Of a stretch of DNA of 64,000 nt, positions 5,161-57,637 are shown in pieces. The translations under genes were made by a program, and so were the position numbers. The DNA is taken from NCBI GenBank assembly GCA_030386875.1, contig CM059568.1, positions 11,642,316 to 11,706,315 of the forward strand, written 5' to 3'. The DNA comes from Morinoia aosen (taxonomy: Eukaryota; Arthropoda; Malacostraca; Amphipoda; Talitridae). Position 1 is the first letter of the stretch. Each line of letters starts with the position of its first letter. The notes beneath the pieces were generated by a model. The model saw nothing but the letters and a program-made list of their open reading frames with translations. It was not told the DNA's origin and did not search any database.

Positions 5161-5229
5161 TATAAAGCTCTATCTGATTATTGTGCTCACTTGCCTCTCA
5201 GCGTTCCCTGCGTACAATACTCAAGTAAG
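5161..5229 (+). promoter_or_regulatory. Gene 1 core promoter and non-coding leader exon
   Basis: The TATA box TATAAAG lies at 5161-5167. An initiator-like CTCACTT puts the probable start at A5189, 28 bases after the first T of the TATA box. A second motif, TCAGCGTTC, lies 11 bases further on. The leader exon is read as 5189-5229 (41 nt), ending AAGTAAG before the donor GTGAGTCTTCAC. The same TATA to initiator to CAG-motif to donor layout recurs at genes 2, 3 and 4. That recurrence is the main support, since no transcript data are available. Confidence 0.72.
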
Positions 5230-6919
5230 GTGAGTCTTCACTGTGAAGCTACGTCCTCCTACGTTCAACATTTGACTTACCACTAGTAATGCAGCAAGAG
5301 GATTAGCCAAATGAGGAGAGTAATTTCTAGAAAAGACATAATTTCGCTCAATGATAAATTACCCTATCAAATTAAACCATTAGTAAAAAAATTTTGTTTG
5401 ATAACCTATTGTACTTGAAACTTTGAAACTTTGAATTAAAATTTAGACTTTAGACTCACACTCACACTGCAGCGTGTGTTACCGGTATTTCCTGTTGCTT
5501 CGAGATGAAAGATGAATAAATATTAATTCCTTTCTGTGTATCATATTTATTGTAATTACAATTTCCATTTGCAGCCTAATGGAACAACAAGTTTATAGAA
5601 TCAATCTCTAGATTCCATAGAATCAATCAATAGAATCTTTCAAGCTTGGCAGCATACAAAGTACTGTCAACGGCACCTCACTCGCAGTATATAGTAAATG
5701 CTCATAGGTTTTGAGCAACACTATTGGATCAAGAGTTTCTTACCTGAAAAATAGGTCTCCTTTATTTTGAGATGAAATTTCCCCTAATGATTACACCTTA
5801 GTTTTTTACTGGAACAGTTTTCACGGTCGAAGAGCTGCATGTGAACAACTAACCTTGTCTCAGATGGACTTATCACTTAAGACTTCTTCCTCAAAGCCTC
5901 TGAAAATTTTGAAGTGTTCTTTTTCTTACTTTTTAAAAGCATTCAGATTGTTTATTGGGAACTCAATAGTGAGCATCATATTTGTATAAAGAGTAAACAC
6001 GTCGAATTCTTAAAGCAATTCATTATTTGGAAATTTACATTCCTTGAAGAGATAAGGGCTCGTTTAGGGTGCTTATGTTTAATGGTTTTATTAGGTTTAT
6101 ATTTCTGAAAGATAAATACCGCTGTCATTATTTTGGAGTGGAATTTTTGCTCGTAGTTCACCTCTGATTTGAATAACGGGAGTTGCACCAATACGCAGTT
6201 CGAGTCTCGGCAATTTTTTAATGGGATTGAAATGATTAAAAAATGAACAAATTTCACAAAAAGTCAAGCTGCCCAAAAGTACTCTTAATCAACGATGCCT
6301 ATAGGTAAAAATGAATTTTTTACTGCTAAAAATTCAGTCGCGTGTTAATTGCTCGGCTTTTCTCATAAATTCATTAGCAAAAGGTTCAGTAATTGAATGA
6401 TAAGAGTAGAGTCATTTGGACATCAGTACATTCATTAAAATTTCATGCAATCTCACAGATAATTGTATGTCTTACTTTTATTACAAATTAAAAACAATTT
6501 AACGTACTTTCTTGTAAATATTTACGGTTTAAATTCTTCAAAAGTTCATTTCTATATCTCTCCGGAGAAGCTAAATCGGTTTTCAAGAGTTTGAGGTAGA
6601 AATTAACGCTTGGATATTTTATGCTCGAATGATAAGCATAGTTTATGTCCATGAAGCGAGAGAACCGCTGTGTTTCTCTATCCATCGTGGAACAACTAGT
6701 CCCTAAAAAGTGGTCTGTCTTAATTTCTGTGAGTGAACGCCACAGTTTTACCTAATCTTCATCTTCTTGGAGAAGTAAATGTAAAAAAGGACCAGATTCT
6801 TACGACGGTTGAGTAAGGGATTTTTACTCAATTTAAATATTACGAAGTGAGTGCTGTGATGCCCAGAGTCTAATTTAACTCTGCCCTCACGACCATCACT
6901 CCAGCAGAGCCCAGCAGAG

Positions 6920-9900
6920 ATGAAGGAGGCCCTAGCGTTCCTGTTGGTGGTGGCCGTGGTGGTGCTGGCGGCGCCCAACGGGGGGCTGCAGGAGGTGAAT
7001 ATACATCTTATTTGATCTTAATGAATATACATCTTATTTGATCTTATTGAATATACATCTTATTTGATCTTATTGAATATACATCGTATTTGATCTTATT
7101 GAATATACATCTTATTTGATCTGATTGAATATACATCTTATTTGATCTTATAGAATATACATCTTATTTGATCTTATTGAATATACATCGTATTTGATCT
7201 TATTGTATATACATCTTATTTGATCTTATAGAATATACATCTTATTTGATCTTATTGAATATACATCGTATTTGATCTTATTGAATATACATCTTATTTG
7301 ATCTTATTGAATATACATCTTATTTGATCTTATTGAATATACATCTTATTTGATCTTAATGAATATACATCTTATTTGATCTTATTGCATATACATTTTA
7401 TTTGATCTTAATGAATATACATCTTATTTGATCTTATTGAATATACATCGTATTTGATCTTATTGAATATACATCTTATTTGATCTTATAGAATATACAT
7501 CTTATTTGATCTTATTGAATACACATCTTATTTGATCTTATTGAATATACATCTTATTTGATCTTATTGAATATATATCTTATTTGACAATTTTATATTT
7601 AATTTTAATGCATTCATCATTCATTGAATTCTAGAGATCCGAAGATACTCAAGACTTAGCTGTGGCACAGGGCGACCCTGGTGAGTTTAAATTTGTAGTT
7701 ATCTTTGAGTAGGTTGACTGCAGACGAGTTAGGAGGCATGCAGAAGCTACCAAATTATTTCGGATCGCTTCGAGGTGGAAGATTGAAACGATCGGTCACG
7801 AAAATGATCTTCATTCTCATTCTTTTATCGTAGCTGAAACGATAAATTTATGAAATACGAGTTGTTGAAATATGTGGCTGTTGTTTATAACCCAAAAAAT
7901 ATTACGGCGATGAATATTGAATTTATTGTTCAAGAATATACAACTTATCGAGATGAAAAAGACATAGCAATTTTTTACGAAAATTTTGTATACTAATAAT
8001 AATTAATAATACGCAGTTGTTGCTTGCTTGGTTGGTCCGTGTGACTGTCACGCTCTATCAAATCTGGTCATTTAGACGGACCGTTTATCAGAGAACATGT
8101 AAACTACCGCTCTACTTCCCAAAAACACCAATTTAATCTTTACACCAAACTTACACTAAATTTCTCCCAAGAAATTAAAGCTTGTTTTCGTTCAAGATGT
8201 AAATTCTAAAACTTGAGCTAAAACTTGCGAGAACTCATGCTAATTAGATCCCCAACTGTGTTGTGTAGAAAAATTATCAAACAATCCATTGAACTAACCA
8301 TTTTATTTCAAGTGTTTTTATCAGAAGGAATGCCATCTCTATTTCCACTTTCCGGTATCCCGGTACTCCTACAGTGATTGTTTTTAGACATTTTTTAGTT
8401 TTCGGTCATGTATAGTAAAGTGAGCTTCTTTGAACTCTTTGCACCGAAACACACAATAGTAAATCTTCACCTTCAACAATAATAATTTGAGACTAAAAGA
8501 CTTCGATTTCGATTTGCGTAGCACAAAGATTCCGTTAGGGAACTGTCGAATATAATTTTGGCGAGCGCCTGACCCTTTAGTGTATGACCGTCATACCTTC
8601 ATTTCTACCCTGCACCCTCCCCTGCATCCTCCCCTGCACCCTCCTCTGCACCCTCCCCTTCACCCTCCCCTGCACCCTCCCTTGCACCCTCCCCTGCACC
8701 CTCCCCTTCACCCTCCCCTTCACCCTCTCCTGCACCCTCCCCTTCACCCTCCCCTGCACCCTCCCCTGCACCCTCCCCTGCACCCTCCCCTGCACCCTCC
8801 CCTGCACCCTCCCCTGCACCCTCCCCTGCACCCTCCCCTGCACCCTCCCCTGCACCCTCCCCTGCACCCTCCCCTGCACCCTCCCCTGCACCCTCCCCTG
8901 CACCCTCCCCTGCACCCTCCCCTGCACCCTCCCCTGCACCCTCCCCTGCACCCTCCCCTGCACCCTCCCCTGCACCCTCCCCTGCACCCTCCCCTGCACC
9001 CTCCCCTGCACCCTCCCCTGTACCCTCCCCTGCACCCTCCCCTGCACCCTCCCCTGCACCCTCCCCTGCACACCTCCCCTGCACCCTCCCCTGCACCCTC
9101 CCCTGCACCCTCCCCTGCACCCTCCCCTGCACCCTCCCCTGCACCCTCCCCTGCACCCTCCCCTATACCCTCCCCTGCACACCTCCCCTGCACCCTCCCC
9201 TGCACACCTCCCCTGCACCCACCAATAGAGGCTGTTCTCGTATCCTGTGTACAGAAAAAATAATGAAATTTTTCTGAATGAATTCGTTTTCTCACTTTTT
9301 GCAGAATCAAGATTTTGCTTCTGTCTCGGGTATTGCATCGCCAACGGCACGGTGAGTTTATTCATTTGTAACTGCGATCATTGTTTAAATTGCTTAAATA
9401 ATGCGGTGTTAACGAACGCGGCATTCACTTCTACTCGTAGTGAAGATATTTAGACAGTAAAAATAAATTAATTCCATCTTCAGGAATAAAGTATTTGCAT
9501 AAAAGGCGTGACTTGCACAAGTAAGGAAAGCAAAAAGTGTGCTAACTACTCTATGTAAACGTACCTATTTTCGAATTTTTTTATTTCAAAATTGTAATAC
9601 TAAAATGTTGAATTATGCGAGTGTGCCTGGGCAAGAACATTTTTACTTGACTGGTGGAATTTAGTTATTTTTACCGCATATATTTGTCACTTAAATATTG
9701 AAGTCGAAACGAATTGAATAATTAGGTAAAGAAAAAAGGTGATCCGACTTTTGTCCTACAGAAGGATGTTCATAATATTCACGAGCGTCTAGCAAATATT
9801 TAATACTTTATTTTTATATCTTTGAACATATCATATTTTGAAACAAATTTTTTGTTACAATCAGTGCAATTAATAATACTAAACTAAGAACGCATAGGCT

Positions 9901-10359
9901 CAGTGATTCTCGAACATAAAGGATCTTGCTCTCTAAAAGAAGAAAAAATGTTTATTTCCAATAAATGTACAAATATCATTGGTTCTTAAAATGTCTTAAA
10001 TTACCGATCATTAGTTGATAAACGTACATGGGTACCATAATATTGGTGTAAAATGGGTGTCATAACGTGCACCAAATCAGTCCTCTTTGACTATTCAAGC
10101 TTGACCATGGTGGTTGTATGCAAGCTAGTGTAGCTACAACTCTAACTATTGATACAAATGCTATCCATTGACATTAAGCAAATTCGCAGCCACGCAATTG
10201 GGGGAAAAATTAGCATTTTTACAGAAGGGAACTTTCGTTTAGAATTTGACATACCTTTAACCTCAGATTGGCTACCGCTGGAAGACTTGCTTCTTTGGGG
10301 CAAGGGCCTTTGACGATCCGTTCCCGTGCTGCGTTTGCTGTGTGTTCGTCAGAGGATGA
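6920..10359 (+). CDS. Peptide gene 1: secreted 8-cysteine peptide, four coding exons
   Basis: Coding exons are 6920-6994, 7635-7680, 9305-9351 and 10267-10359, with intron phases 0, 1 and 0; all introns are GT-AG. The 86-residue product has a hydrophobic signal peptide starting MKEALAFLLVV (residues 1 to about 18-23). A short acidic linker follows (RSEDTQDLAVAQGDP, 26-40). The mature region contains CFCLGYC, a potential N-glycosylation site in IANGT, one Cys in WKTCFFG and a CCVCC cluster near the C terminus, eight cysteines in all. Exon 2 starts at about 6905, after CCAG, with a 15-nt leader CAGAGCCCAGCAGAG before the ATG. Intron 2 is filled by a 26-bp minisatellite and intron 3 by a 12-bp one. 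Architecture resembles a defence-peptide precursor, but the cysteine spacing matches no family I can name. No defect is seen. Confidence 0.86.
6995..7588 (+). repeat. 26-bp minisatellite starting at the gene 1 splice donor
   Basis: About 23 head-to-tail copies of a 26-bp AT-rich unit containing GAATATACATCTTATTTGAT. The first copy includes the intron's first bases: the donor reads GAG then GTGAATATACATC, so the splice site is part of unit 1. This gives gene 1 the donor GTGAAT, where genes 2-4 have GTGAG at the same place. Variation is mostly single-base (TCTTAT, TCGTAT, ATAGAA). Confidence 0.95.
8606..9222. repeat. 12-bp CT-rich minisatellite in gene 1 intron 3
   Basis: About 50 copies of CTCCCCTGCACC, very homogeneous in the centre (8760-9060). 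Variants at the edges are TTCACC, TGCACACC and TGTACC. The array ends about 80 bases before the acceptor of the third coding exon (9305). It gives low-complexity frames on both strands that are not genes. On the transcribed strand it is a roughly 600-base pyrimidine-rich tract. Confidence 0.96.
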
Positions 10360-10493
10360 AGCTCGGTGCCGTGGCTCATCAGTGGGCTACCGTGTCTGTT
10401 TTGTTGCAGCGCGTGGCGGCTGTAGTAACAAGTCTGCACATGCTGCAAAAATGTGGGCTTATTTTCTTTTAATTGTTAGTTTGCACAAATAAA
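10360..10493 (+). terminator. Gene 1 3' untranslated region and polyadenylation signal
   Basis: A canonical AATAAA lies at 10488-10493, about 130 bases past the stop codon and within CACAAATAAATTG. No other AATAAA occurs between the stop and this point, so it is the likely end of the gene 1 transcript. Confidence 0.6.
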
Positions 10494-10548
10494 TTGAAGC
10501 GTGAAATGCGTTTTGTTTTACTCTCACGCATGGGTGCGTTTGGCAATC

Positions 10549-10655
10549 GAAGCAATTGGCAATCAAAGGTGAGAGGCTACACCCCCTAGCCAATCAAAGG
10601 TGAGAGGCTAGACCCCCTAGCCAATCAAAGGTGAGATGCTAGACCCACTATCCAA
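10549..10655. repeat. 31-bp tandem repeat, about three copies
   Basis: Units begin CCAATCAAAGGTGAGAGGCT and end CCCCCTAG. The third copy is diverged (GAGATGCT, CCCACTATC). It lies just downstream of the gene 1 polyadenylation signal. Confidence 0.85.
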
Positions 10656-15060: not shown

Positions 15061-15231
15061 CAAGGTCAAGTAACACACAACGTCAAATTTAGTTTATGTG
15101 TGCAAATCAATTGAACAAGAATGCATTATTAAATAGACTTCTGCTGCTCTGCGTACAGAGGTTCCAATCTGCTGCAGCGGCTGCGCGGCTATCGCGTCAT
15201 CTGCAGCGACTCCAGCATCCCTGCGTCGCGG

Positions 15232-18200
15232 TCAGCCAGTGACGTAGGCACAGCAGTTGCAGAAGGGGCAAGCGTCAGGGAATGGTACTGTCCCAAAGAG
15301 ACAAATCCTGCTACGGATGCCGATCTGAAATGGAACAAAGTTTCATTGTGAAAATCTAATTCATTCAGGTTAATTCTGATCAAGTTTTCGCGTATCGCAA
15401 TGAACTGGGATCTAATGGCGTCTTTTTCATGCCTGGCGTTATACCTATTCTGTGAGTTTCTTTGTTTAGCCACTTTCATTCGGAGCTTTCGCCTCTATTC
15501 CTGGGTAAGACAATGGACCCATTCACTGCTAATGTGTACTATTTGCATCAAAAGTCATGACAGTAGCGAGATAAGCCAATCATGGGTCCGCGCAAATGAA
15601 ACTTGAGCAATCGAACCACTTCAGAGGCTGACATGCTGAGGGTTATGGAGTGCTCTTCATGTGTCGTATTTGTAATCACGAGATGAAATCAATTTCAACA
15701 AAGAACTTTTGTTATCAATATTATATAATTAGACGGCTAGGTTTAAATGTAAGACATGTAATTATTTCTGAATATTTTGAGCATTCAGAGCCGCAACATC
15801 GGCTTAGGAAATGTGGTACAGGCTCATGCTCTCTCATCGCAGCGACTAGTTTTTTAAGTCTCTTATTCATACACTGTAAATATACATAACCAGTCAAAAG
15901 TGGACAAATTTTAATGCTAATTTTAACTACTACACACAATTACTTGGAAATTTAAAGCAGGAATGAATAAAATTGATTTTATTTTGTTGAAACTCATTGT
16001 GTGCTCTATTTCTGCTGGTAGATATCGTGCCGTTCGTGTGAATAACTTCCTATAAAATTAGATTCGTTCATTTTTTTCAGTATTCTATGTATTCCAGGAG
16101 GGTATGAGAAAATTGTACTTTTTGAAACAAAATTAATCTAGTTTCCATACATAGTAATATTTTGGAACTCTATTGAGCAAATACAAACAAAACACTCCTT
16201 CACATCCACTGACGTGATATTATTTAATTTGTCTGACATCACAAAGACAATCTAACATCATAAGAGTGTACTATTACAATAGTGTAACATCATAATAATA
16301 TAAATTCACAATAACGTAAAATCACAACCCAGTCTAACTTTTTCGCCGCCTGCATGCATGTTTTTCGCCGCCTAAGCGATTTAACCGCTTAAATCGCTTA
16401 AGCGGCGAAAAACATGCATGCAGGCGGCGAAAAAGTTACATTGGAAATAAGGTATCATCACAAAAAATAACATCACAATAAACACAAGCTCACCGTGCCG
16501 TTGGCGGTGCAAAATCCTCCACAGAAGCAAAAGAAAAGTCTTGAATCTGTAGCAAGAGTAAAACATTGCACGTTAATTCAGAATATTCAACGATTTTTTT
16601 TTTGTAATTACAGTACAAATAGAGCTATGGTTTGTGTATAACATTCATCTCGCCTGTGTTGGGTGAGGGAGAGATAGAGTGATAGCACAAGATAAAAAAA
16701 TTGTTGACATAATTTTTACGCTTTTCGATTGGCAAAGGTGCAATCACGGAGTACCGTAGTGGCGATTCTGGTTATGCTATCTCGCTATGATGGGCGTGAT
16801 GAATTAGCATTGTATGAATTAGCATTATATGAAATTAGCATTACATGAAATTAAAATTATATGAATTAACTTTATATCAAATTAGCATTACATGAAATTA
16901 GTATCATATGAACTCATGTGATTGATATTATGAATCTCTAACTTAAACCTGTGCCAATAAAATATCGTCCACCAATTTAAAGATATCAAACAAAGTTAAT
17001 AAAATAGCAACTAATTGCACTCACCAGGGTCACCTTCAGCCACAGGAGCATCTCCCGCCTCTTCAGATCTCTGCAACGAGTAAATCAAACTTGAAGCAAA
17101 TTAAAAACCAAACCGCTGAAACCGCTGATTTGAAACCAAAATACTGAGGATAAAGTATAATTCAATACGAACACGAACGAACGTAAAAGAGGAATATTAT
17201 CGTGAGTGAAAGTAAATTAAATTAAAGTCTTGCACGCGAAGTTCTTGCATTTCGAAATTCTTGCAAATTAAACGTAGGTATTCTCTAGGGACCTATATTT
17301 GTGTGCTTTTTCCGTAGGCAGTGCATCACACTATGGACAAAAAAATATCCAGGTTCAAGTCCAGTCCTGCAAACGAGGTATTTTCTGCAAATGAAGACGA
17401 TAGCAGCTTTTTTTGGTGATCATATAAAAGGGTTGGTAGATGAGGATGTTGGGATAACCCTTTAACTTAATTCGCTTACATTTTTGTTTCAACCATTAGG
17501 CAATGATCGAAAAAATAATTGAAAAAAGCTATTGTAATAAAGCAGAGATCAATAAAAATGCATCACAAAAAATGGTTTTCCTATAATTAAATTTTATCTA
17601 TAATGTCTTTAATTGTCTAGTATTCCCTGAGACCTGAATCATGTGCAGAAATTCACTCAATTCTATACTTAGTTGTATAATCATTGTACAACGCCAGTTG
17701 GGGGAAATCAAGAAAACAATGTTCACAATAAAGAATATAAGGCCTGTTGCAGAAGCAGGAATTTATCTATTGAAATACATAAGAACTATTTGGAACCAAT
17801 GGAAATACCAAAGAGCACGAGATGAATATTTTTGATACAAAGCGCACTATTCAAATTACTAGGGGTAAGTTTTTAAAGGGCAAACTTGACTTTCTAACGC
17901 AAATTACATCATTGTTCTGATGTGCAAATACTGGCTCACATCCAATGATGAGATGTGATCCATTGGGAAAATGTGGTAAATGCCATGCCTCTCGCAATGA
18001 TGAAATGTGAAAGTGTGGTGTGATCCAATGATAAGATGTGGCAAATATCGCTTCTCATGCAATGATGAGGTGCGATATTTGCCAGCGCCCTAACCAGCCT
18101 TGCGCCCTCACCAGCCAGGCGCCCTCACCAGCCTGGCGCCCTCACCAGCCAGACGCCCTCACCAGCCAGGCGCCTTCACCAGCCTGGCACCCTCACCAGC

Positions 18201-18679
18201 CTGGCACCCTCACCAGCCTTGCGCCCTCACCAGCCTGGCGCCCTCACCAGCCTGGCGCCCTCACCAGCCTGGCGCCCTCACCAGCCTGGCGCCCTCACCA
18301 GCCTGGCGCCCTCACCAGCCAGGCGCCCTCACCAGCCTGGCGCCCTCACCAGCCAGGCGCCCTCGCCAGCCAGACGCCCTCACCAGCCAGGCGCCTTCAC
18401 CAGCCTGGCACCCTCACCAGCCTGGCACCCTCACCAGCCTTGCGCCCTCACCAGCCTGGCGCCCTCACCAGCCTGGCGCCCTCACCAGCCTGGCGCCCTC
18501 ACCAGCCAGGCGCCTTCACCAGCCTGGCACCCTCACCAGCCTGGCACCCTCACCAGCCTGGCACCCTCACCAGCCTGGCACCCTCACCAGCCTGGCGCCC
18601 TCACCTCCTGCAGCCCGCCATTGGGCGCCGCCAGCACCACCACGGCCACCACCAACAGGAACGCGAGGGCCTCCTTCAT
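15232..18679 (-). CDS. Peptide gene 2: secreted 8-cysteine peptide, four coding exons
   Basis: Reading on the minus strand, coding exons are 18679-18605, 17070-17025, 16546-16494 and 15324-15232, phases 0, 1, 0; all introns are GT-AG. The 88-residue product has the same signal peptide as gene 1 (all nucleotide differences in that exon are synonymous). The linker is RSEEAGDAPVAEGDP, followed by a mature part with FFCFCGGFCTANGT, then RICLFG, FPDAC and CPFCNCCAYVTG. It has eight cysteines and a potential N-glycosylation site in the ANGT motif. The coding start is the first ATG after CAGAGCCCAGCAGAG. Intron 2 begins inside a 17-bp minisatellite and intron 4 holds a 104-bp palindrome. Gene 3 is the closest relative and lies about 4 kb away in the same orientation. 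A defence-peptide role is inferred, not shown. Confidence 0.86.
16335..16438. repeat. 104-bp near-perfect palindrome (foldback)
   Basis: The two arms of about 50 bases are reverse complements with one internal mismatch and a few unpaired central bases. The left arm starts TAACTTTTTCGCCGCC and the right arm ends GGCGGCGAAAAAGTTA; both contain TGCATGCATG. It lies in gene 2 intron 4, about 56 bases downstream of the donor in the transcript. It is much more GC-rich than its surroundings. No target-site duplication is obvious. Confidence 0.93.
16798..16915. repeat. Degenerate short tandem repeat (GAATTAGCATTATAT type)
   Basis: About seven imperfect copies of a 15-18-base unit such as ATGAAATTAGCATTAC within gene 2 intron 3. 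Confidence 0.6.
17330..17470 (-). repeat. SINE-like relic in gene 2 intron 2
   Basis: It carries the B-box-like GGTTCAAGTCC (17352-17362) followed by a body with GGTATTTTCTGCAAA and TTTGGTGATCATA. The copy at 25190-25290, in the equivalent intron of gene 3, has the same landmarks in the same order, so the relic predates the gene 2/3 duplication. A related body is at 32440-32600. Confidence 0.5.
18085..18604 (-). repeat. 17-bp minisatellite starting at the gene 2 splice donor
   Basis: About 30 copies of GCCCTCACCAGCCTGGC (plus strand), with CCAGGC, CCTGGCA and CTTGCG variants. On the transcribed strand the unit is GCCAGGCTGGTGAGGGC. The array begins exactly at the donor of the signal exon (GAG then GTGAGGGCGCCAGG). 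Most units therefore contain a donor-like CTGGTGAGGG. Long proline-rich frames here are products of the repeat. Confidence 0.95.
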
Positions 18680-19325: not shown

Positions 19326-19394
19326 CTTAGAAAAGTATTTCACAGAATGAGCACTGAAGGGAGAGTGAGCACACTGTGCACAAAGCGCCTTATA
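19326..19394 (-). promoter_or_regulatory. Gene 2 core promoter and non-coding leader exon
   Basis: On the minus strand TATAAGG starts at 19394 and an initiator-like CTCACTC places the probable start at 19366, again 28 bases on. The motif TCAGTGCTC follows 11 bases later. The leader exon ends at 19326 with CTAAG before the donor GTAAGTCTTCAC and is 41 nt, the same length as in genes 1 and 3. The intron's CTTCAC extension beyond the splice consensus is also shared. Confidence 0.75.
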
Positions 19395-20860: not shown

Positions 20861-20862
20861 GT

Positions 20863-20867
20863 GCGTG

Positions 20868-27132: not shown

Positions 27133-27201
27133 CTTAGTAAGGTATTCTATTCAGCGAACACTGAGAGTGGAATGAACACCCTGGTGACACTGCGCCTTAT
27201 A
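27133..27201 (-). promoter_or_regulatory. Gene 3 core promoter and non-coding leader exon
   Basis: On the minus strand TATAAGG starts at 27201, the initiator-like TTCATTC puts the start at 27173, and TCAGTGTTC follows. The leader exon ends at 27133 (CTAAG) before GTGAGTCTTCAC and is 41 nt long. It matches gene 2 closely across TATA, initiator and donor. Confidence 0.76.
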
Positions 27202-38037: not shown

Positions 38038-39918
38038 CCTTCTGCTACATATGTGGATGATACACACTCAATAGTCAGAGACGTAGCATATCCTCGTTCG
38101 TCAAGCGTGCCTACAAGGCATGCTATGAAGTTCGTCTTGGTGATCAAGACCAGCAATGGGCTTCTCATGTTGTTTGTCACAATTGTGAAGATATCCTTCG
38201 AGACTGGACCAAAGGAAAGCGCAAAGGTCTACCTTTTCGTGTTTCAATGATTTAATGCAAACCCACCAACCATGTACTGACTGCTTCTGCATGGTAAACA
38301 CAACGGGTGTTGGGAGGAAAAACCGACATAGGCGCTGAACATTCCCTCAGCTATTGGGCCTGCTCCGCACTCTGAAGAAGTGCATGTTCCAGTTTTCAAA
38401 GGCTTTCATTCATTGGACGATAAAGACATCGGACATGATACAAGCGAAAAAGACAGTTGTGACAGCGAATTGTCTGAAAAGTATTCACAATCGGAGAACT
38501 GTTCTTCCGACACTGAACTTTTTCCCTTCCCAAGTCTCTTCCCCAGGCTGAAATGAATGATTTAGTGCGGGATCTAGGTTTTTAAAGAAAGCAGCAGAGC
38601 TTTTGGCATCAAGATTACAAGGCAGAAGTCTTGTTGATCCCTCTGTTGAAGTATCATATTTCAGAAAGCGTAACCAGCTTTTTGTGACCTTCTTTTCAGA
38701 AGACAGACAGTTTGTTTACTGCCATGACATCCCAGGGCTTCTCAATAAACTGGGTGTACCTTACTATAGTCCTGCTGAATGGAGACTCTTTTTAGACAGT
38801 TCAAAACGCCGTCTAAAGTGTTTTATTTTACATAATGACAATGTTTATGGAATAGTACCAGTCGGTCACTCAGACCATTTGTACGAAGGCTATGAAGATT
38901 TCAGACTGCTCATGAACTTATTGAAATATCATGAGCCCAATTGGATCATTTGTGTAGACTTAACCCTTTAACACCCCAGAGGACTATACGGTCCTCTTTC
39001 GAAAGTAGCCTTAATATACTGTATTGTGTTTATAGCTAAATTTGTTCCCTAATATGTTTTTTAAAGTTAATTACCGAGTGGCATTTTATTTCTCATTTTG
39101 GTATCGAAGACAACCTGATGGCAGCGCCAGTCTAATGATGGTGGTTGTGATAACGACAATATGAAGACAAAAATGCTGGCGTTAAAGGGTTAAAGATGGT
39201 CGGCTTTCATCTTGGACGACAGAAAGGTTTCACCAAGCCTCCATGTTTCCTCTTTATGTGGGACAGCCGAGCACGAGACGAACATTGGGTCCAGCAGGAC
39301 TGGCCTATTCGTGACACCCTTCAAGCAGGCTTGCAAAATATCATACAAATACCATATATATCATTGTAAGTAGAGATAAGATCATCTTTCCTCCTCTTAA
39401 CATCAAATTAGTTTTGATGAAGCAATTTGGCAAAGCACTGGAATCTGGAGGTAAATTTTTCCAACACATCATCAGAGCTTTACCAGGGTATTCATTAGAG
39501 AAGATCAAAGCAGGAGTGTTTTTGATGGCCCACACATTCTCAACCCTAACTCGTGATGATCAGTTTGTTGCTAAGAAGACCGGTTTAAAAAAAGGCAGCA
39601 TAGTTACCCTTTGTGGCAGTCATTCATAACTTCCTAGGAAACTATAAGGCGGAGAACTACAGTGAACTTGTGAACAGAATGCTCCTCGCTTTTCATGATC
39701 TCGGGTGCAACATGAGCATCAAGCTTCATTTTTTGAACATCCACCTTGATAAGTTCCCTGACAACCTGAGGGCTGTGAGTGACGAACAAGGAGAACGATT
39801 CAACCAAGACCTAAAGGTCATGGAAGAACGCAACCAAGAGCGCTGGGACAAAAGGATGATGGCTGACTACTGCTGGAGCATTAAACGAGATCGTTCAGAT
39901 GAAGTGTACAAAGTTTAA
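38038..39918 (+). pseudogene. Broken copy of a repetitive arthropod gene family of unknown function
   Basis: An intronless coding relic spread over several frames. Landmarks in order are a Cys-pair (VCHNCEDILRDWTKGKRKG, about 38176-38232), a second Cys/His patch (TDCFCMVNT, about 38279) and SYFRKRNQLFV. These are followed by YCHDIPGLLNKLG, PAEWRLFLDSSKRRLK, KPPCFLFMWDSRARDEHW, LMKQFGKALESGGKFFQ, AVSDEQGERFNQDLKVMEE and MMADYCWSIKRD. I recognise this set from uncharacterised, many-copy arthropod proteins. Its biochemistry is unknown, and a transposon origin is plausible but unproven. It is dead here: an in-frame TAA at 38253-38255, frame changes near 38265, 38580, 39350 and 39600, and a 226-bp MITE at 38964-39189. 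The final 100 codons (39613-39918) remain open. Confidence 0.75.
38960..39193. mobile_element. 226-bp piggyBac-type MITE with TTAA target duplication
   Basis: The element occupies 38964-39189 and is flanked by TTAA at 38960-38963 and 39190-39193. The ends are inverted: CCCTTTAACACC on the left and GGCGTTAAAGGG on the right, 11 of 12 matching. TTAA targeting and CCC termini are the piggyBac hallmark. Removing the element and one TTAA brings the pseudogene codons on either side (ending VD and starting KMVGF) back into one frame. The insertion site is therefore exact. Confidence 0.88.
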
Positions 39919-40275: not shown

Positions 40276-41130
40276 CAGGAGAGCGTCCCCCATACGGACT
40301 TTTTTCTTTATTATTGAACCTAGAACAATGAAATTTGGTATACTGATAGGAAATTGAATTTGGAATCGTTTTTGCTTAGAGCAAAAGTTCAATTTTCTTG
40401 AAAAGAAAACGGGAAATCAAAGAAAACGAAGTTAAAAGGGGGGTGTTTCAAAAATCTTCTCCTCCTACAGTTTTTGAGCTACAGTGATGATTTGGGTATC
40501 ATTGAATGCGGAAAGACACGGGCTTTTATGGATGTTAAAATTCATTCCAAAATTATTCATTGCTCATGAGTTATGACGTCATAAATTTTCACTTTTTCGA
40601 AAAAGGACATTTTTTTCCTATTTTTACACTTTTTCATATTGAAAATGTAAATTTGAGGAAACGAATTTCAGCATCCATAAAACCCCGCAATTTTCTGCAT
40701 CCAATGATACCAAAATCATCACTGTAGCTTAAAACCTGTAGGAGGAGAAGCATTTTGAAACCCCCAAAACCATTGTTTACATTATAAGCAAAACAAAGAA
40801 ACATAAACAATTCAAATAAAATTTTTTTTTAAATTTTTGGTTCAAGTTAGACCCCTGAAATCATTATAGAGTAATCCAGAGACATAGGAGTTGACATAGC
40901 ATCTTTGCGCCGTGAAGAAAGTGCCATGGGGGAGGTGTAACATGATAAAATACAACTTCCCCCTCCCCTCCCCCCCATTCTTCAAACCCCCGTAGCGGGC
41001 GAACGAGTGAACGTACGAGTCTCATTTTTTCACAGGATGTACCTGACCTCTTGCACTTCTTATAACAGCAAAAATCCCAGTCTCTCAAGAAATCCCAGAA
41101 GCAAGGATTCATAAGGGGGACGCTCTCCTT
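40276..41130. mobile_element. 855-bp inverted-repeat element with an internal palindrome
   Basis: The termini are inverted: CAGGAGAGCGTCCCCC at 40276-40291 and GGGGGACGCTCTCCTT at 41115-41130 (15 bases matching). Inside, about 110 bases at 40449-40556 are inverted at about 40664-40775. Both arms share CTCCTCCTACAG and GATGATTT with GGTATCATTG. There is no transposase; it is a foldback or non-autonomous element. The outer end sequence differs from that of the 32680-34010 element. Confidence 0.72.
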
Positions 41131-42750
41131 CAGATTTGAAACGAACACACTCAAATTCACCATAGAAAGGTCTTTTTTAATTCAACAAAATGAGTGGTTC
41201 CCAAAGTATATTGTCTGAAGTTCATCATTTCATTTCGGAGCTTCAGGTGCACAAATGCAATATTTTTCGATAGAAATTAAATCCGGTTGACTAACAAAGG
41301 CAAAGAGCGAACAACATTTGCCGGACAAGTGTTTGCGGCAGCGCAGTGCCCATCAACACAGCGGACAGCTGCGTGAGTAACTGATCCCGTGATAAAGCCG
41401 CTGCAAAGCTTTCACACACACAACGCCGACAGAACATACTTGTTTCGTATTACGCTGCAGCTCACGCTCTTCATAAAATATAATAAAAGAGCAATGTTAG
41501 CAGTTTTTGTGTCTGTAATAATGTTTTTTTTGCACAAGTATCAACGCAGTGACAAAATTTTTCACCATAAACTGACTGCACAAAACAATTGTGTCGGTTG
41601 AGTTTCACTCACATAAAGCATTAACCAATAATCAAGCAATTCTGTGTATGTATAAAGCGAAATTAAAAGAATCCTGTTTTTTAAACAATTAAAGCTTGTG
41701 TGTTACAACACTGTGTTTTAATACAAAAATATTCTACCACAGAGAAGTGATGTATGCTTAAAATCGGCTTATGTTTGTACACCAGATATAATTGTACTTT
41801 CTAAACGCAAGTACTGATGTGTAAGACTTCGTTAATTTGTATTTATTTGACAGAATAAGTATTTTTGGGTTTTATTGGATGAGCTCTTATATAGGTCTCC
41901 ATGCAGGGTGGAGACAGTCAGGCAGCAGCCGGTATGGCCTCCTCTAAAATTGCCCCATCGAGAGATTCATGACAGAGTGACGCGTGAAAGGGAGGATTCA
42001 AATGCATTCCCCAAAAAATTAAATTGTTGTAAATATTAAAACGATATCAATAATGCATTAAACATCGAATATTAAACATTAATATATTAAAAGTTTCTCA
42101 CAATATTAAAAATTTCAAGGACTTCTGTTGACAATAATATATTTGAAAGGCTTTTCTCGAAAATAAAATATTCCAAGACTTCACTTGATAATGAAATATT
42201 TCAAAGACTCCATTTTTTAAGGATTTAAACTGCAGAGCTAGCGAATAAATATAATTAAATATAGTATGAACAATACATATATTTACTATGCTGAGCATGT
42301 ATAAATATAGAAAAAATCATTAGAGTATTTTAATAAACTTCATGACACTCATTGTAACTAAATGTGAATAATATTGAAAACTACGTTGTAGTCGCAGTTG
42401 CATAAGTTTTTAAAGGATCTATTTCAATCGGCGGCCTCTGGCGAACTGAAGTAATTCAATAAGTAACCAGAAGTTACGATCGAAGCTTATTCAAATTATA
42501 CAGAGCGATCGCACACATGTTGCTTGGTTTTTACATTTGTGGTTCCGTAAATCTGAAGTACAGATAAGGTTCGAGTGAAGCGTAAGTAGTTTTGAAATTG
42601 TGTTTCGTAACTCTCAGATTTGCATTTCTGCGTTATTTCTCAATTAATTAACTCGTAAGAAATACAAACTCATATTGAAGAAATAGAACATAGGCGCGCC
42701 AAATGATGCATTCATGTTTATTCTCACAACTTGCAGCAAGCGCTAGTTCT
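41131..42750. other. Intergenic sequence
   Basis: No gene recognised. The interval 42600-42720 resembles 45250-45370 (shared TTTGCATTTCTGCGTTATT versus GTGCATTTCTGTGTTATT, and downstream AATAATGCAT-type sequence). The two form a diverged dispersed repeat on either side of the 40-bp array. Confidence 0.4.
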
Positions 42751-43470
42751 TAACTAACACAAATTACAAGTATAGTTTTTTGGTGGATCTTAACTAACAC
42801 AAATTACAAGTATAGTTTTTTGGTGGATCTTAACTAACACAAATTACAAGTATAGTTTTTTGGTGGATCTTAACTAACACAAATTACAAGTATAGTTTTT
42901 TGGTGGATCTTAACTAACACAAATTACAAGTATAGTTTTTTGGTGGATCTTAACTAACACAAATTACAAGTATAGTTTTTTGGTGGATCTTAACTGACAC
43001 AAATTACAAGTATAGTTTTTTGGTGGATCTTAACTAACACAAATTACAAGTATAGTTTTTTGGTGGATCTTAACTAACACAAATTACAAGTATAGTTTTT
43101 TGGTGGATCTTAACTGACACAAATTACAAGTATAGTTTTTTGGTGGATCTTAACTAACACAAATTACAAGTATAGTTTTTTGGTGGATCTTAACTAACAC
43201 AAATTACAAGTATAGTTTTTTGGTGGATCTTAACTGACACAAATTACAAGTATAGTTTTTTGGTGGATCTTAACTAACACAAATTACAAGTATAGTTTTT
43301 TGGTGGATCTTAACTAACACAAATTACAAGTATAGTTTTTTGGTGGATCTTAACTGACACAAATTACAAGTATAGTTTTTTGGTGGATCTTAACTGGCAC
43401 GAATTACAAGTATAGTTTTTTGATGGATCTTAACTAACACAAATAACAAGAATGGATTTTTGGTAGGCTT
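42751..43470. repeat. 40-bp tandem array, 18 units, with 120-bp higher-order period
   Basis: Units start TAACTAACACAAATTACAAG and end TTTTTTGGTGGATCT. Units 1-6 read TAACTAAC. From unit 7 on, every third unit (42991, 43111, 43231, 43351) reads TAACTGAC. Unit 17 (43391) has TAACTGGCACG and unit 18 is diverged. Confidence 0.97.
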
Positions 43471-47079: not shown

Positions 47080-49459
47080 CTCATCATATGGTGAACACCT
47101 CATCGTATGGTGAACACTTCATCGTATGGTGAACACTTCATCGTATGGTGAACACCTCATCGTATGGTGAACACCTCATCGTATGGTGAACACTTCATCG
47201 TATGGTGAACACTTCATCGTATGGTGAACACTTCATCGTATGGTGAACACCTCATCGTATGGTGAACACCTCATCGTATGGTGAACACCTCATCGTATGG
47301 TGAACACTTCATCGTATGGTGAACACCTCATCGTATGGTGAACACTTCATCGTATGGTGAACACTTCATCGTATGGTGAACACCTCATCGTATGGTGAAC
47401 ACCTCATCGTATGGTGAACACCTCATCGTATGGTGAACACCTCATCGTATGGTGAACACTTCATCGTATGGTGAACACCTCATCGTATGGTGAACACCTC
47501 ATCGTGTGGTGAATACTTCATCGTATGGTGAACACGTCATCGTATGGTGAACACTTCATCGTGTGGTGAACACTTCATCGTATGGTGAACACATTATCGT
47601 ATGGTGAACACTTCATCGTATGGTGAACACTTCATCGTATGGTGAACACTTCATCGTATGGTGAACACTTCATCGTATGGTGAACACTTCATCGTATGGT
47701 GAACACGTCATCGTATGGTGAACACCTCATCGTATGGTGAACACCTCATCGTGTGGTGAACACGTCATCGTATAGTGAACACCTCATCGTATGGTGAACA
47801 CCTCATCGTATGGTGAACACTTCATCGTATGGTGAACACTTCATCGTATGGTGAACACCTCATCGTATGGTGAACACCTCATCGTATGGTGAACACTTCA
47901 TCGTATGGTGAACACTTCATCGTATGGTGAACACTTCATCGTATGGTGAACACCTCATCGTATGGTGAACACCTCATCGTATGGTGAACGCTTCATCGTA
48001 TGGTGAATACTTCATCGTATGGTGAATACTTCATCGTATGGTGAACACATCATCGTATGGTGACACTTCATCGTATGGTGAACACTTCATCGTATGGTGA
48101 ACACTTCATCGTATGGTGAACACTTCATCGTATGGTGAACACTTCATCGTATGGTGAACACTTCATCGTATGGTGAACACATCATCGTATGGTGACACTT
48201 CATCGTATGGTGAACACTTCATCGTATGGTGAACACTTCATCGTATGGTGAACACTTCATCGGATGGTGAACACTTCATCGTATGGTGAACACTTCATCG
48301 TATGGTGAACACTTCATCGTATGGTGAACACTTCATCGTATGGTGAACACTTCATCGTATGGTGAACACTTCATCGTATGGTGAACACTTCATCGTATGG
48401 TGAACACTTCATCGTATGGTGAACACTTCATCGTATGGTGAACACTTCATCGTATGGTGAACACTTCATCGTATGGTGAACACTTCATCGTATGGTGAAC
48501 ACTTCATCGTATGGTGAACACCTCATCGTATGGTGAACACTTCATCGTATGGTGAACACCTCATCGTATGGTGAACACTTCATCGTATGGTGAACACTTC
48601 ATCGTATGGTGAACACTTCATCGTATGGTGAACACTTCATCGTACGGTGAACACTTCATCGTATGGTGAACACTTCATCGTATGGTGAACACCTCATCGT
48701 ATGGTGAACACTTCATCGTATGGTGAACATTTCATCGTATGGTGAACACTTCATCGTATGGTGAACACCTCATCGTATGGTGAACACTTCATCGTATGGT
48801 GAACACTTCATCGTATGGTGAACACTTCATCGTATGGTGAACACTTCATCGTATGGTGAACACTTCATCGTATGGTGAACACCTCATCGTATGGTGAACA
48901 CTTCATCGTATGGTGAACACCTCATCGTATGGTGAACACTTCATCGTATGGTGAACACTTCATCGTATGGTGAACACTTCATCGTATGATGAACACCTCA
49001 TCGTATGGTGAACACTTCATCGTATGGTGAACACTTCATCGTATGGTGAACACTTCATCGTATGGTGAACACTTCATCGTATGGTGAACACCTCATCGTA
49101 TGGTGAACACCTCATCGTATGGTGAACACTTCATCGTATGGTGAACACCTCATCGTATGGTGAACACTTCATCGTATGGTGAACACTTCATCGTATGGTG
49201 AACACTTCATCGTATGGTGAACACTTCATCGTATGGTGAACACTTCATCGTATGGTGAACACCTCATCGTATGGTGAACACTTCATCGTATGGTGAACAC
49301 TTCATCGTATGGTGAACACTTCATCGTATGGTGAACACTTCATCGTATGGTGAACACTTCATCGTATGGTGAACACCTCATCGTATGGTGAACACTTCAT
49401 CGTATGGTGAACACCTCATCGTATGGTGAACACTTCATCGTATGGTGAACACCTCATCG
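47080..49459. repeat. 19-bp minisatellite, about 125 copies
   Basis: The unit is CTTCATCGTATGGTGAACA. The second base alternates between T and C (CTTCATCG versus CCTCATCG), and rarer variants are GTCATCG, ATCATCG, ATTATCG, GTGTGGTG and GAATAC. An 18-base deletion variant (GGTGACACTT) occurs twice, at 48059 and 48191. There are no spacers and no dyad symmetry, so it is a plain minisatellite. Confidence 0.98.
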
Positions 49460-50371: not shown

Positions 50372-51084
50372 GCAGTATATTATAAAGACATTCGTATGGT
50401 ACAGCGGGATATTATAGAGACATTCGTATGGTACAGCGGGATGTCATAGAGACATTCGTATGGTACTGTGGGATGTTATAGAGACATTCGTATGATACTG
50501 CGGGATGTTATAGAGACATTCGTATGATACTGCGGGATGTTATAGAGACATTCGTATGATATTGCGGGATGTTATAGAGACATTCGTATGACACTGCGGG
50601 ATGTAATAGAGACATTCGTATGATATTGCGGGATGTTATAGAGACATTCGTATGACACTGCGGGATGTAATAGAGACATTCGTATGATACTGCGGGATGT
50701 TATAGAGACATTCGTATGATACTGCGGGATGTTATAGAGACATTCGTATGATACTGCGGGATGTTATAGAGACATTCGTATGATACTGCAGGATGTTATA
50801 GAGACATTCGTATGTATGATGCAGCGGGATGTTATAGAGACATTCGTATGATACTGCGGGATGTTATAGAGACATTCGTATGATATTGCGGGATGTTATA
50901 GAGACATTCGTATGACACTGCGGGATATTATAGAGACTTTTGTATGGTACAGAGGGATATTATAGAGACATTCGTATGATACTGCGGGATGTTATAGAGA
51001 CATTCGTATGATACAGCGGGATGTTATAGAGACATTCGTATGATACTGCGGGATGTTATAGAGACATTCGTATGATACTGCGGG
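50372..51084. repeat. 32-bp minisatellite upstream of gene 4
   Basis: About 22 copies of a 32-bp unit containing GTTATAGAGACATTCGTATG followed by ATACTGCGGGAT. Variants are TGGTACAG, TGACACTG and TGATATTG, with one unit extended by a TATG duplication near 50812. It ends about 560 bases before the gene 4 TATA box. Confidence 0.96.
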
Positions 51085-51644: not shown

Positions 51645-51713
51645 TATATAAAGGTCCAGTCTACCTCAAGTCCCACTACTTGCTTGCAGTGCGTTCGAAG
51701 TACGAGACATAAG
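51645..51713 (+). promoter_or_regulatory. Gene 4 core promoter and non-coding leader exon
   Basis: TATATAAAG lies at 51645-51653. Taking TATAAAG from 51647, an initiator-like CCCACTAC puts the start at A51675, 28 bases on, as in the other three genes. GCAGTGCGTTC follows. The leader exon is 51675-51713 (39 nt), ending ACATAAG before a weaker donor GTTGGT. It is the most diverged of the four promoters, and the donor assignment is the least certain. Confidence 0.6.
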
Positions 51714-52852: not shown

Positions 52853-53094
52853 CTGTACAGCAGGGCTTCTCAACCTTTCTATTGTCGTGTACCCCCTTAG
52901 CTTAGTGGTGTAGCTTCATGTACCCCCAGCACCGTTAAAGGTTTAGGAAACTATAAAAATACACTTAATTATTAATAATTATGTATACTTATACTGTTGC
53001 ATGTAAATATATGCTGTACATTTTAACATATGAAGTATGTTAGACGTACCTTTAAGGGTAAATGTACCCCCGGTTGAGAAGCCCTGCTGTTCAG
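52853..53094. mobile_element. 226-bp hAT-type MITE just upstream of the gene 4 signal exon
   Basis: The element is 52861-53086 with perfect 15-base inverted ends, CAGGGCTTCTCAACC and GGTTGAGAAGCCCTG. It is flanked by an 8-base target duplication CTGTACAG (52853-52860) and CTGTTCAG (53087-53094), 7 of 8 matching. CAG-starting ends and 8-bp duplications are hAT hallmarks. It carries no transposase. Its right flank ends 18 bases before the first base of the signal exon at 53113. Confidence 0.88.
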
Positions 53095-53117
53095 TACATA
53101 CTTCCGTTCCAGCAGAG

Positions 53118-56100
53118 ATGAAGGAGGCCCTCGCGTTCCTGTTGGTGGTGGCCGTGGTGGTGCTGGCGGCGCCCGATGGGGGGCTGCAAGAAGAGGTGAG
53201 CGTTGGAAAGGACATGCGAAAAAATGAAAATGAAATAGAAAACTTTATTTCAAACAAAGTTGATACATGATGTAGAACATTAGTTTTCAAAATGTCTCAA
53301 CATCAAGATTCTTAGTTGATATACACTCTTGAGTATCGTAGTCCCATGTTCCAATCACTTATGTTTTAAGGCTTTTGTTGCTTATAAACTGTACAAAAAT
53401 GCCGCAGCTTTTACTAAAATGGACAAAATCAAAGATTCGATGGTGGAATACTTTAATTATTATTGGTAATTTTTATTAATGAAAATTCATCAGCAGTTTG
53501 ATAAATTTAAATGTGTTTTAAATTTGCTAAAATAGCTTTATCAATTATTTTAGACTGTGAGAGTAGACATTTTCACTTAAAATTGTGGTTAGTAGACTTT
53601 GCTCTCACGACAAAAAGTAACACAAGGTTTTTAAAAATTATCAAGAGACATATAAATACTTGATTGAATTCCAAAATTAGATACCAAAATTATTAAGCTG
53701 TGATGCATGCATCCTTTAAAAACAATTATTCTATTAATTTAAATCTGACAGCGGTAATCGTTTGAATAAATTTCTAAAGTTTTCTTCTCTCTAAACATTT
53801 TAGAACAATAAAATTTTGATTCACGTTGCCGAGCTCTTAATGTCGCAAAAAAGATAACAATAATTGGTTTTGATTAAATAATTTATTTTCTGTATAAACA
53901 AGCAATTTTGCGAGGCATTCCAGCCATTACGGAATCAAAACTATTTTATTGACTGTATTGACTGTATTGAATCAAAACTATTTTATTGACTGTATTGACT
54001 GATTCACTGTACTTCCTAAAATTATAAAAAAATAAACAATCATGTTTTTCGCTGATTCATCATTTTTTATTGAAATAGAATTGCTTTTAGCCATTTTACA
54101 ATGAGACACTTCTTTCTTACTTTCTAAAATTAAAAAAACTAAACAATCATGTTTTTCACTGATTCAGCATTTTTTATTGAAATAGAATTGCTTTTAGCCA
54201 TTTTACAATGAGACACTTCTTTTTAATGACAATCAACACACAGCCACATCATATTTTTATCACCTACTGTTTGAAGCTACAGTTTCGAGCTGGAGAGATA
54301 TTTCCTTCTGCGTAAGCCAATATATAATATGAATAATTTGATGTTTTGCTATTTTATTTCAGTGATAGTAGGTGGCCGTTTCTGATGAAAAATTATCCCC
54401 TTTTTTGTTTTAAGTTGTTGCACTGTGCAGTAACTGTGCAGTAACTAGAATGTTGCACTCTTCAGTAACTGTGCAGTAACTACGGTGCAACAGTGTGCAG
54501 TAACTCATGAGTTCTCACATTGCATGAGCCAAGACTGTAAGTAACTCAAGTTTCATTCCATTTGACAGTTGCCTGTACGATAAACGGTTTTTATGTTAGC
54601 GCCGTAAGAAAGAAGCTAATTTCCATCCACTTTCAGAATCCTTCAGGAAGCTAAAAATAGTTTTGAAAAATCGACAAGTTCAGTTCTTATTCAGTAGCGT
54701 CACGTAGATCAACTCGAGCTCAGGACTGAAATTTGTAAATTTGCTCTCAGGTTTCCAGAGCGCTAATCTTCACTTCAACGTTGAATAAAGTTTCCATTTT
54801 TTAATATTGTGCTGGCGATTTTATTTTTGCAGAATTCTGGAGACACTGAAGATGCACTCCTAACTGGGATCAACATTGCGAACATTGGGAACATTGGGGG
54901 TGAGTGTGGGACACGTTTGTGAGCTGGGAGATTTTGCCATGGCATTTTACAACGACCGCAAGTGACTGGTGACTTTTTGTCGAGATTTCTCACATTTCTA
55001 TATCCTAACCATTCATTTTCACTTAAGACCGTGAGTGACTTCGTGCAACATCAGTTGCGAAACTGCTCCCCCGCGTTGTCATTGTAGATAAATAAAAAGT
55101 AGGCGTTATTGCTAAGCATGCCTCTTACGAATGCAAATAAACTATCTTGAAAGCCCTGAAAATGGCTGCCAACATGATCACAAGTCAATGATTTCTTTGG
55201 TGTAGCAAAACAAGTTTTCAGCAAACTCAACTAAGAGAAACGACGAGACTTGACGGACCGAAGACATGCTGTATGCTCTAGGTAGACGCAGTTATGCTAA
55301 CACAATCGACCCGTACTTTATTAACCCTTCAGTTTGCCGCGCATTTGGATCTTCTGAACTGAATTTAGGTGCAATTCAAAAAAATTTCTCCGTAGAATTA
55401 CCTCAGTTTAAAAAATAAGGATTGATTACGGGACATGCAGCAGTTGCTCATGCAATCGATGATCCCTGTGGGTCGTGACTCATCATTGATTAGTCTTTTC
55501 ACTTGTGTTCTAGAGTTTGTCGGTCTTGTGCATGTTTTGGTGCATAGCATTATTGCTGTCCAGACTGAGTGAATACAGCCAGTAATTCAAATCTGGCTCG
55601 ACGTTTTCAGAATTCGTTTCATTGTTGCCTAGGTGAACTTGATGGAAATTTGTTATGTCAAAAAAAGGAAAATGTCAGTGGAATGAATTTATTCATTCCA
55701 GTAGGCGTTAAATTTTGACGCTCATCAGGATCGTTAATTGATCATAATGATCGTTAAAAAACAATCGGTAATGAATTAAGATATCAAGAATAAAATTTTA
55801 TGTTTTATTCAGGTTATGAGTACGTATAATTCGCTGCATATTTGCTATAGGACCCCTAAAGCTTTCCACTCACATTTTTTCCTTACGAAGAGTGGAGGCA
55901 AACTGGGAAAGTGATTAGTCTAAACTTTCCGATGAAACGTAAAATGAGAAGGATACAGGTAGAGGTAACAAATGTGTGGAAAATATTTGTTTTAAATTCT
56001 CTAAAGTATTTTCTATATTCTTTGACCAACATTCGATGCTCTTTATCCTATATTATGTGTTATTTGTTTTGTATTATATGTTTTGTAGTTTTAATAACGA

Positions 56101-57333
56101 ACAAACTAAAGCTATAACCTACAAATCAGGGAAATTGACGAATATGTCAATTACATACACTTGAAAATTTTTTCTTCTCACCTCGTGCCTCGTGTGAGAT
56201 TGTCGAAAAATCGCAACACTTGTTCAATAGTTTTTGGAATTTCACACTTCATATTTCATATTCAACTTTATCTATTCTACATTTTTTATGGTAGCTTCTA
56301 ATTTTATACATCACGTTTTCAAAAATTTCATTGTAAATTTCACTCTAAAATTCTCCATCATTATCAATTTACACACATTAGGTGTAATGTATTTCATACA
56401 TCCCAACTCAGTTAATATTCCCTAATCTTTCCTCTATATTTATTGCTATTTATCCTGCAATCTATCTGACAGAACGTGTTGCGTATATTGCAAATTTTAC
56501 TTTCTTAATTAAACAGCAATGACGAGACTCACTAGCTCAGCTCACCACTATGTAGTGCCACAATCCTGAACTGCTCCACCACATGAGGCCTGCGAGTGTC
56601 TCCACGCAAGAAACTGTCGCACCTAATCACAAATTTCTTTTATTTAATGCTACGATAACGCGTTTTTTTACCAGGTGCAGCGGGCAAATTTTGCGTCGGA
56701 ATTTGCTTGGCCAACGGCACGGTGAGTATTTTGTAAAAACATTCCTGAATTATGATTGAAAGTAACTCAGTAGCATGATGACACTCCGTTTGGTGGTCCT
56801 ACTATAACGCTTTCGCATTGCCCCATGAAGACTGGGTAGTAGCCTTGCTGGTATCATCTTCGTTTTCAAATTGTATTTTGTGTTTAGAAGTTCTTCACGG
56901 AAACTAAGTCTCATCGTCAGAAGAGCAGCAGTACTACCTCATTCATGTTATCAATGCATCAATTGATAACATAGCAGAGATGACCGATAAATATTCTTAA
57001 TGTAGACACTAATAAAAACGTGAAAAAATTTCTATTTTTTGTCCTGTATACGTACAAGATCCCATAGTCGCACATTATTATGAATTTGACCTTTAGTTAT
57101 AGATCTGATGGTGCATTGTCAAGCTTTTTTACTACAAGCGTGTTTTAGAAGTTTTAACCCTTTTACTTGTAAAATGAAGTCTCTAAAACCACCTGCAATG
57201 TATGAGCGGGATTATACTTCTTCAATGAGAGGAGTTGTGTCCTCCGCAGATGGGCATTCGGCAGGCAACATGCCTAGGAGGACTCCGAACTTTCCCTGAC
57301 CCTCTGGCGTCATGCCGCTGTTGTGTGGCGTGA
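53118..57333 (+). CDS. Peptide gene 4: secreted 6-cysteine family member, four coding exons
   Basis: Coding exons are 53118-53195, 54833-54899, 56675-56721 and 57250-57333, phases 0, 1, 0; all introns are GT-AG. The 91-residue product starts with the family signal peptide, with D for N at residue 20 and one extra E before the donor. The second exon is longer and different (contains NSGDTEDALL and a near-repeat IANIGNIG). The third gives KFCVGICLANGT, where the first family cysteine is K. The last gives MGIRQATCLGG, RTFPDPLASCRCCVA and stop. It has six cysteines: the first of the CxC pair and the cysteine three residues before the final CxCC are both absent. The spacing of the remaining cysteines and the potential N-glycosylation site in ANGT are kept. 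A hAT MITE sits beside the first coding exon's acceptor. The frame is intact; role inferred as for genes 1-3. Confidence 0.84.
53930..54225. repeat. Local duplications in gene 4 intron 2
   Basis: A roughly 95-base segment (AATCATGTTTTTCGCTGATT through GAGACACTTCTTT) is present at 54025-54116 and again at 54138-54223. Just upstream, about 45 bases with CAAAACTATTTTATTGACTG are also doubled (53937 and 53974). Confidence 0.85.
54418..54520. repeat. Short TGTGCAGTAACT repeats in gene 4 intron 2
   Basis: Six or so spaced copies of GTGCAGTAACT, some preceded by GTTGCACT. No function is apparent. Confidence 0.7.
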
Positions 57334-57637
57334 TGCAGGCATGGCATCATACTCCAGCATGTGGGGCGTGATGCAGGCATGGCATCTTGCCACTGATGCA
57401 TGAACGGCTCCATGCCACAGTTGTGTGGCATCAGGATTAGTTCTCAGCGCATCGGGGACTAAACAGAGCAAAAATTTTCGGAAAAATGTTACTAGTTATT
57501 TAGAATATACTCGCTTACATACCAATGTGTCCTGTTTCCTTGTCCTGTGTTGAATTTAAATACTCATCTAATTATATTTTTGACTCAAACATTACATAAC
57601 GCATATGGATCCTTATGTAAGGTAGAATTTGAATAAA
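57334..57637 (+). terminator. Gene 4 3' untranslated region and candidate polyadenylation signal
   Basis: The 3' region carries imperfect repeats of GTGATGCAGGCATGGCATC (57330-57350, 57368-57388). The first AATAAA after the stop codon is at 57632-57637, within GAATAAATAAGG, about 300 bases downstream. Confidence 0.45.

Follow-up and report, generated by a model that had tools for sequence, protein, structure and literature searches.

The 64 kb window analyzed here (positions 1-64000, the whole stretch of DNA) is predicted to contain four related genes, each intact and split into exons, whose products are small secreted cysteine-rich peptides. In the order of our reconstruction they are g1 (+ strand), g2 (-), g3 (-) and g4 (+); each has a presumed short leader exon at its 5' end, followed by four coding exons, and their precursors are 86, 88, 87 and 91 amino acids long, respectively. 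The g1 coding exons encode the signal peptide (6920-6994), an acidic linker (7635-7680), the first three cysteines and an ANGT sequence (9305-9351), and the last five cysteines, a C-terminal glycine and the stop (10267-10359); they are 75, 46, 47 and 93 nt in length. On the minus strand, coding exons 1 through 4 occupy 18605-18679, 17025-17070, 16494-16546 and 15232-15324 in g2 (75, 46, 53 and 93 nt) and 26093-26167, 24764-24809, 24283-24332 and 23282-23374 in g3 (75, 46, 50 and 93 nt). Those of g4, on the plus strand, are at 53118-53195, 54833-54899 (a longer, diverged linker), 56675-56721 and 57250-57333 (a six-cysteine form that lacks the C-terminal glycine), with lengths of 78, 67, 47 and 84 nt. 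Exon 1 sites were located through the start motif ATGAARGARGC; a pattern search gave exons 3 and 4 in every copy, and for exon 2 we took, gene by gene, the candidate whose acceptor, donor and frame best suited splicing. All coding introns are GT-AG with phases 0, 1 and 0, and every reading frame has a single stop, at its end, and no frameshift. This reconstruction confirms the claim of the first-pass annotation that four complete genes in +, -, -, + order share exon number and intron phases. It also supports the claim that ORF-based annotation would miss all four, and it illustrates how such families hide: the largest coding exon is 93 bases and each gene takes up roughly 4 to 6 kb. Three of the genes, g2 being the exception, have the sequence A[AT]TAAA no further than 400 nt from the stop.

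The presumed transcript starts, at 5189, 19366, 27173 and 51675, each have a TATAA 28 bases upstream (the g1 and g4 motifs are listed at 5161 and 51645). The corresponding leader exons are 5189-5229 in g1 (+, donor GTGAGT), 19326-19366 in g2 (-), 27133-27173 in g3 (-) and, presumed from position and promoter, 51675-51713 in g4 (+), whose donor, GTTGGT, is weaker. The start sequences are TCACTT, TCACTC and TCATTC in g1 through g3, which we take to resemble the arthropod initiator, and CCACTA in g4, and the leader intron acceptor is presumed to lie at a ..TCCAG sequence 5 to 15 bases ahead of the ATG. In BLASTN comparisons the g1 leader matched those of g3 (E 6e-8) and g2 (E 8e-6) and did not match that of g4, so the matching leader exons proposed earlier hold by sequence for three of the genes, and for g4 by position and promoter only. 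The upstream kilobases of the four genes have no NF-kB site in common; a strict form is present in one (g4) and a relaxed form in two (g1 and g4).

The recurrence of these elements is beyond chance expectation. ATGAARGARGC occurs four times in the window (0.16 expected), and the exon 4 signature described below is found four times in its six frames and in none of 40 simulated windows (first-order Markov sequences with the base-neighbour frequencies of the window). Between paralogues, tblastn E values ranged from 1e-11 to 3e-12 with exon 1, from 2e-5 to 3e-12 with exon 4 and, more weakly, from 0.004 to 2e-5 with exon 3, which is short. Searches of the window with the exon 1, 3 and 4 peptides ranked the four sites first, with the best matches elsewhere at E 0.067 and above, and found no convincing fifth copy in these 64 kb, beyond which the family may continue.

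All four precursors begin with a common signal, MKEALAFLLVVAVVVLAAP, and exon 1 encodes this signal and a further six or seven residues. It is followed in each by an acidic linker with a net charge of -4 to -6, which in g1 through g3 ends in ESR or DSR directly before the cysteine domain. The motif C-x3-C-x-ANGT closes exon 3 in all four genes, and both it and the common signal start are as the first-pass annotation had them. The exon 4 form was likewise found in every copy, as G-x-R-x3-C-x2-G-x3-F-x-D-x4-C-x-C-C; its description as ending in C-x-C-C does not literally mean the protein end, since five (g1 through g3) or two (g4) residues follow. The phase 0 intron after ANGT splits the cysteine domain in all four genes, and the N-G-T within that motif is an invariant N-glycosylation sequon. 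With cut points set at SR or GK, which was our choice, the mature parts have a net charge of +1 to +2 and GRAVY values of 0.75 to 1.07, and so are hydrophobic. The C-terminal residue is glycine in g1 through g3 and alanine in g4. A C-terminal glycine is the usual amidation donor, and amidation of the first three peptides is possible. A single basic residue marks the presumed linker cut site; in g4 this site and the terminal glycine are both missing.

The four mature peptides share an invariant core of six cysteines, C-x3-C-x12-C-x13-C-x-C-C, with offsets of 0, 4, 17, 31, 33 and 34 from the first core cysteine. The g1, g2 and g3 peptides have eight cysteines; their two accessory cysteines lie at -2 and at 28 (g2, g3) or 30 (g1), and g4, with six, has neither. 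Because the accessory cysteines are jointly present in three paralogues and jointly absent from the fourth, the pattern suggests that they bond to each other. Such joint presence or absence of two cysteines among paralogues amounts to a testable prediction of disulphide pairing.

Exon 1 has diverged far less than the rest of the coding sequence. Its base identity between copies is 94.7-100%, and that of the other coding exons is 56-85%; of 48 comparisons of the 40 bases flanking coding exons, 47 fall at 22-77% identity; the exception, at 90%, is the g1-g2 comparison upstream of exon 1. In exon 1 silent divergence (dS, Nei-Gojobori) ranges from 0 to 0.22 over all six pairs, and in the linker and the cysteine domain it is at least 0.84 and often saturated. 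Fisher tests of exon 1 against the remainder gave p values of 0.003 to 5e-7 in all six pairs, where counts were rounded and the pairs, which share sequences, are not independent. The tracts of high identity reach 44 (g1-g2) and 22 (g1-g3) bases upstream of exon 1 and stop four bases beyond it. Two tandem arrays, at 6996-7587 (26-base units) and 18085-18605 (17-base units), are unrelated to each other and start no more than about two bases from the exon 1 donor, in g1 and g2 respectively. The conservation of exon 1 could reflect gene conversion limited by the tandem arrays or selection on the bases themselves. Scorpion toxin leaders are likewise described as hyper-conserved with a sub-neutral silent rate, for which selection on bases was argued (PMC2651877). 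A frozen leader beside a diverged body is a place to test base selection against gene conversion in effector families. In the cysteine domain dN is 0.21 to 0.50 and is below dS in all six pairs, which indicates that selection preserves the domain and that its function is maintained. In the g4 linker replacement changes are saturated as well (dN 1.8 or more), and so selection cannot be read there. No sign of positive selection was seen in the body, a result with little power at single sites given four sequences and saturated dS.

No relatives of these proteins were found in Pfam, PDB sequences, viral contigs, bacterial and archaeal genomes or searchable paper text. These collections are without animal genomes or transcriptomes, so the absence is weak evidence and novelty is provisional; for want of a homologue in the libraries searched, the function is also without an anchor. 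The full and cysteine-domain profiles against viral contigs, and the cysteine-domain profile against bacterial and archaeal genomes, gave candidates that fit the patterns, none of which was confirmed. By sequence, neither the one of the four mature peptides that was used as a query nor the mature profile matched a solved structure; the full profile gave one match, to a hydrophobic photosystem stretch (E 3), which was rejected. Pfam scans, read up to E 10 with HMMER filters that drop most weak matches, gave only weak matches that were set aside: a BRCA2 repeat (0.28 and 0.64), a Pellino RING (0.78) and DUF1611_N (0.1). Among the matches examined, string searches of paper text with the exon peptides led to protegrin-4 and a synthetic peptide and to no relative. 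Rfam gave no match to the window.

The claim that the cysteine order is unlike that of known families stands for the families checked, and can now be put in terms of the defined core and its accessory pair. Beta-, big and alpha-defensins have a cysteine order of three, one and an adjacent pair, whereas the invariant core here is two, one and three cysteines. The defensin order is followed by g1 alone, in its first six cysteines (-2, 0, 4, 17, 30, 31), and this likeness to alpha-defensins was rejected because the adjacent pair is not conserved in g2 through g4; Pfam listed no defensin family up to E 10. Big and beta-defensin genes are reported to have a phase 1 intron just ahead of the cysteine domain, with an additional phase 0 intron further upstream in the big defensins of horseshoe crabs (PMC7203481). 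All four genes here have a phase 1 intron 5' of the cysteine domain, between coding exons 2 and 3, and share with those genes the order of a 5' leader intron, a phase 0 and a phase 1 intron, but they differ in the further phase 0 intron inside the domain. Arthropod defensins have the pattern C...C-x3-C...C...C-x-C and the CS alpha-beta fold, a helix and a sheet held by C2-C5 and C3-C6 bonds. All four peptides resemble them in having C-x3-C, then a single cysteine, then C-x-C, and differ in that the first cysteine is missing (g4) or merely two residues ahead (g1 through g3), in an extra terminal cysteine, in loops of 12 and 13 residues and in the lack of a Pfam match. The peptides may thus work like a defensin, though they are not shown to be one.

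Pfam gave no match to the WAP (four-disulphide core) domain of crustins or to DUF3254 of the anti-lipopolysaccharide factors, which have an LPS-binding loop between two cysteines. Penaeidins have a Pro/Arg-rich region and a cysteine pattern of their own; here the linker is acidic and not Pro-rich, and there is no Pfam match. Panusin is an amidated, beta-defensin-like disulphide-rich peptide of decapod blood cells (PMC10301333), and its amidated C-terminus recalls the possible amidation of g1 through g3. The mussel CRP-I genes are described as a gene family of undetermined function with leader conservation, which has a first exon of 5' UTR only, a conserved signal/propeptide and a variable cysteine-rich end (PMC10138031). 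In these respects they are like the genes in the window. They are also reported to have a C-C-CC-C-C array in one exon, a dibasic cut and positive selection, in contrast to the split domain, monobasic site and dN below dS of g1 through g4.

That these genes encode secreted disulphide-rich effectors with maintained reading frames is a well supported prediction. The explanation we favor, with our confidence about evenly divided for and against, is a locally duplicated family of such effector peptides, most likely host-defence peptides. In outline, the signal would be removed from the precursor, the linker would be cut at Ser-Arg just ahead of the cysteine domain in g1 through g3, the C-terminal glycine of these three would be converted to an amide and their accessory cysteines at -2 and 28 or 30 would form a mutual bond. 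The released compact, hydrophobic peptide would act extracellularly on microbes, probably at their membranes, and the near-identity of exon 1 would be kept by base-level selection or exon-limited gene conversion while the body diverges. Of the host-defence reading in the first-pass annotation, the local family of intact secreted cysteine-rich precursors stands, and host defence itself is not established: the charge is low, GRAVY is 0.75-1.07, no NF-kB site is common to the genes and in the cysteine domain dS exceeds dN. Neither charge nor promoter sites nor selection speaks positively for an immune role. Leader conservation, which is found both in scorpion toxins and in the mussel family, does not discriminate among functions. 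Slightly short of an even chance, in our judgment, is that this is an undescribed animal effector family built on a cysteine framework of its own, in which the accessory pair comes or goes as one unit and the leader exon is homogenised among inverted copies as the split body diverges. If expressed, it would add a disulphide framework to those of secreted arthropod-type effectors.

The genes might instead be a divergent branch of the paralithocins, or another known arthropod disulphide-rich family outside the libraries searched, which we think unlikely but worth serious consideration; as paralithocins are antimicrobial, this overlaps the host-defence reading. Paralithocins have a C-terminal amide and a disulphide pairing of 1-8, 2-6, 3-5, 4-7, which would be hard to reconcile with cysteines 1 and 5 being missing together from g4, an indirect hint against membership. 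Paralithocins 1-3, of red king crab, are the closest candidate by layout: like g1 through g3 they are short, secreted, hydrophobic-leadered peptides with eight cysteines (PMC9865402, PMC11767717). They are described as cationic (PMC11767717), against +1 to +2 for the mature parts here, and g4 has six cysteines, not eight. The printed paralithocin 2 signal is followed by RS (PMC7391757) and by eye resembles the signal plus RS in the window, but the likeness, with BLASTP E 6.6 to g2 for one of three printed signals, is not significant, and hydrophobic stretches this short carry little weight either way. The same paper reports a weak resemblance by BLAST, between paralithocins 1 and 3 and mussel mytilin and between paralithocin 2 and defensins (PMC7391757). 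We consider it unlikely that the peptides are gland-delivered toxins or allomones acting on animal targets. Toxins follow the same precursor logic of a frozen leader, an acidic propeptide ending in Arg (here ESR or DSR in g1 through g3), a disulphide-rich body and a C-terminal amide, and the sub-neutral silent rate reported for the scorpion leaders (PMC2651877) is found here too; the body, however, shows no sign of the diversifying selection of the scorpion case, and the four precursors have no sequence match to scorpion toxins and no toxin-family match in Pfam.

A reproductive, pheromone or hormone-like role is more doubtful. The amidation signal in three of the four, the N-G-T sequon in all four and the near-neutral charge would suit secreted peptides of this kind, but six or eight cysteines and a diverging four-copy family are unusual for peptide hormones. 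That the copies are decayed or untranscribed we regard as very improbable: g2 has no A[AT]TAAA in the 400 nt after its stop, but all four are free of internal stops and frameshifts, their splice sites are intact, dN is below dS and a TATAA precedes each leader.

Elsewhere in the window, open frames at 38561-39915, in at least three pieces, have the look of a transposon-derived protein and presumably resemble transposon proteins of arthropods; they have no credible Pfam match. Together with the initiator-like transcript starts, these frames suggest an arthropod source. A Pfam scan of the 60 longest of 215 frames (at least 60 codons without a stop, larger tandem arrays excluded) gave six weak matches, the best of which, to the scorpion calcine model, lies in a stop-free frame at 40867-41181 (-); at E 0.0021 and 18.6 bits (cut-off 25) over 15 residues, it is probably due to chance after 60 scans. 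The window is rich in further tandem arrays, whose units measure 12 to 70 bases; they lie at 890-4623, 8608-9220 (in the second coding intron of g1), 42748-43464, 47081-49459, 50380-51084, 58669-59438 and 63702-64000. An inverted repeat at 16329-16444, in the third coding intron of g2, has 56-base arms that are 95% complementary and four bases apart. The window as a whole is 38% GC and has an observed/expected CpG ratio of 0.94, so it is without CpG depletion.
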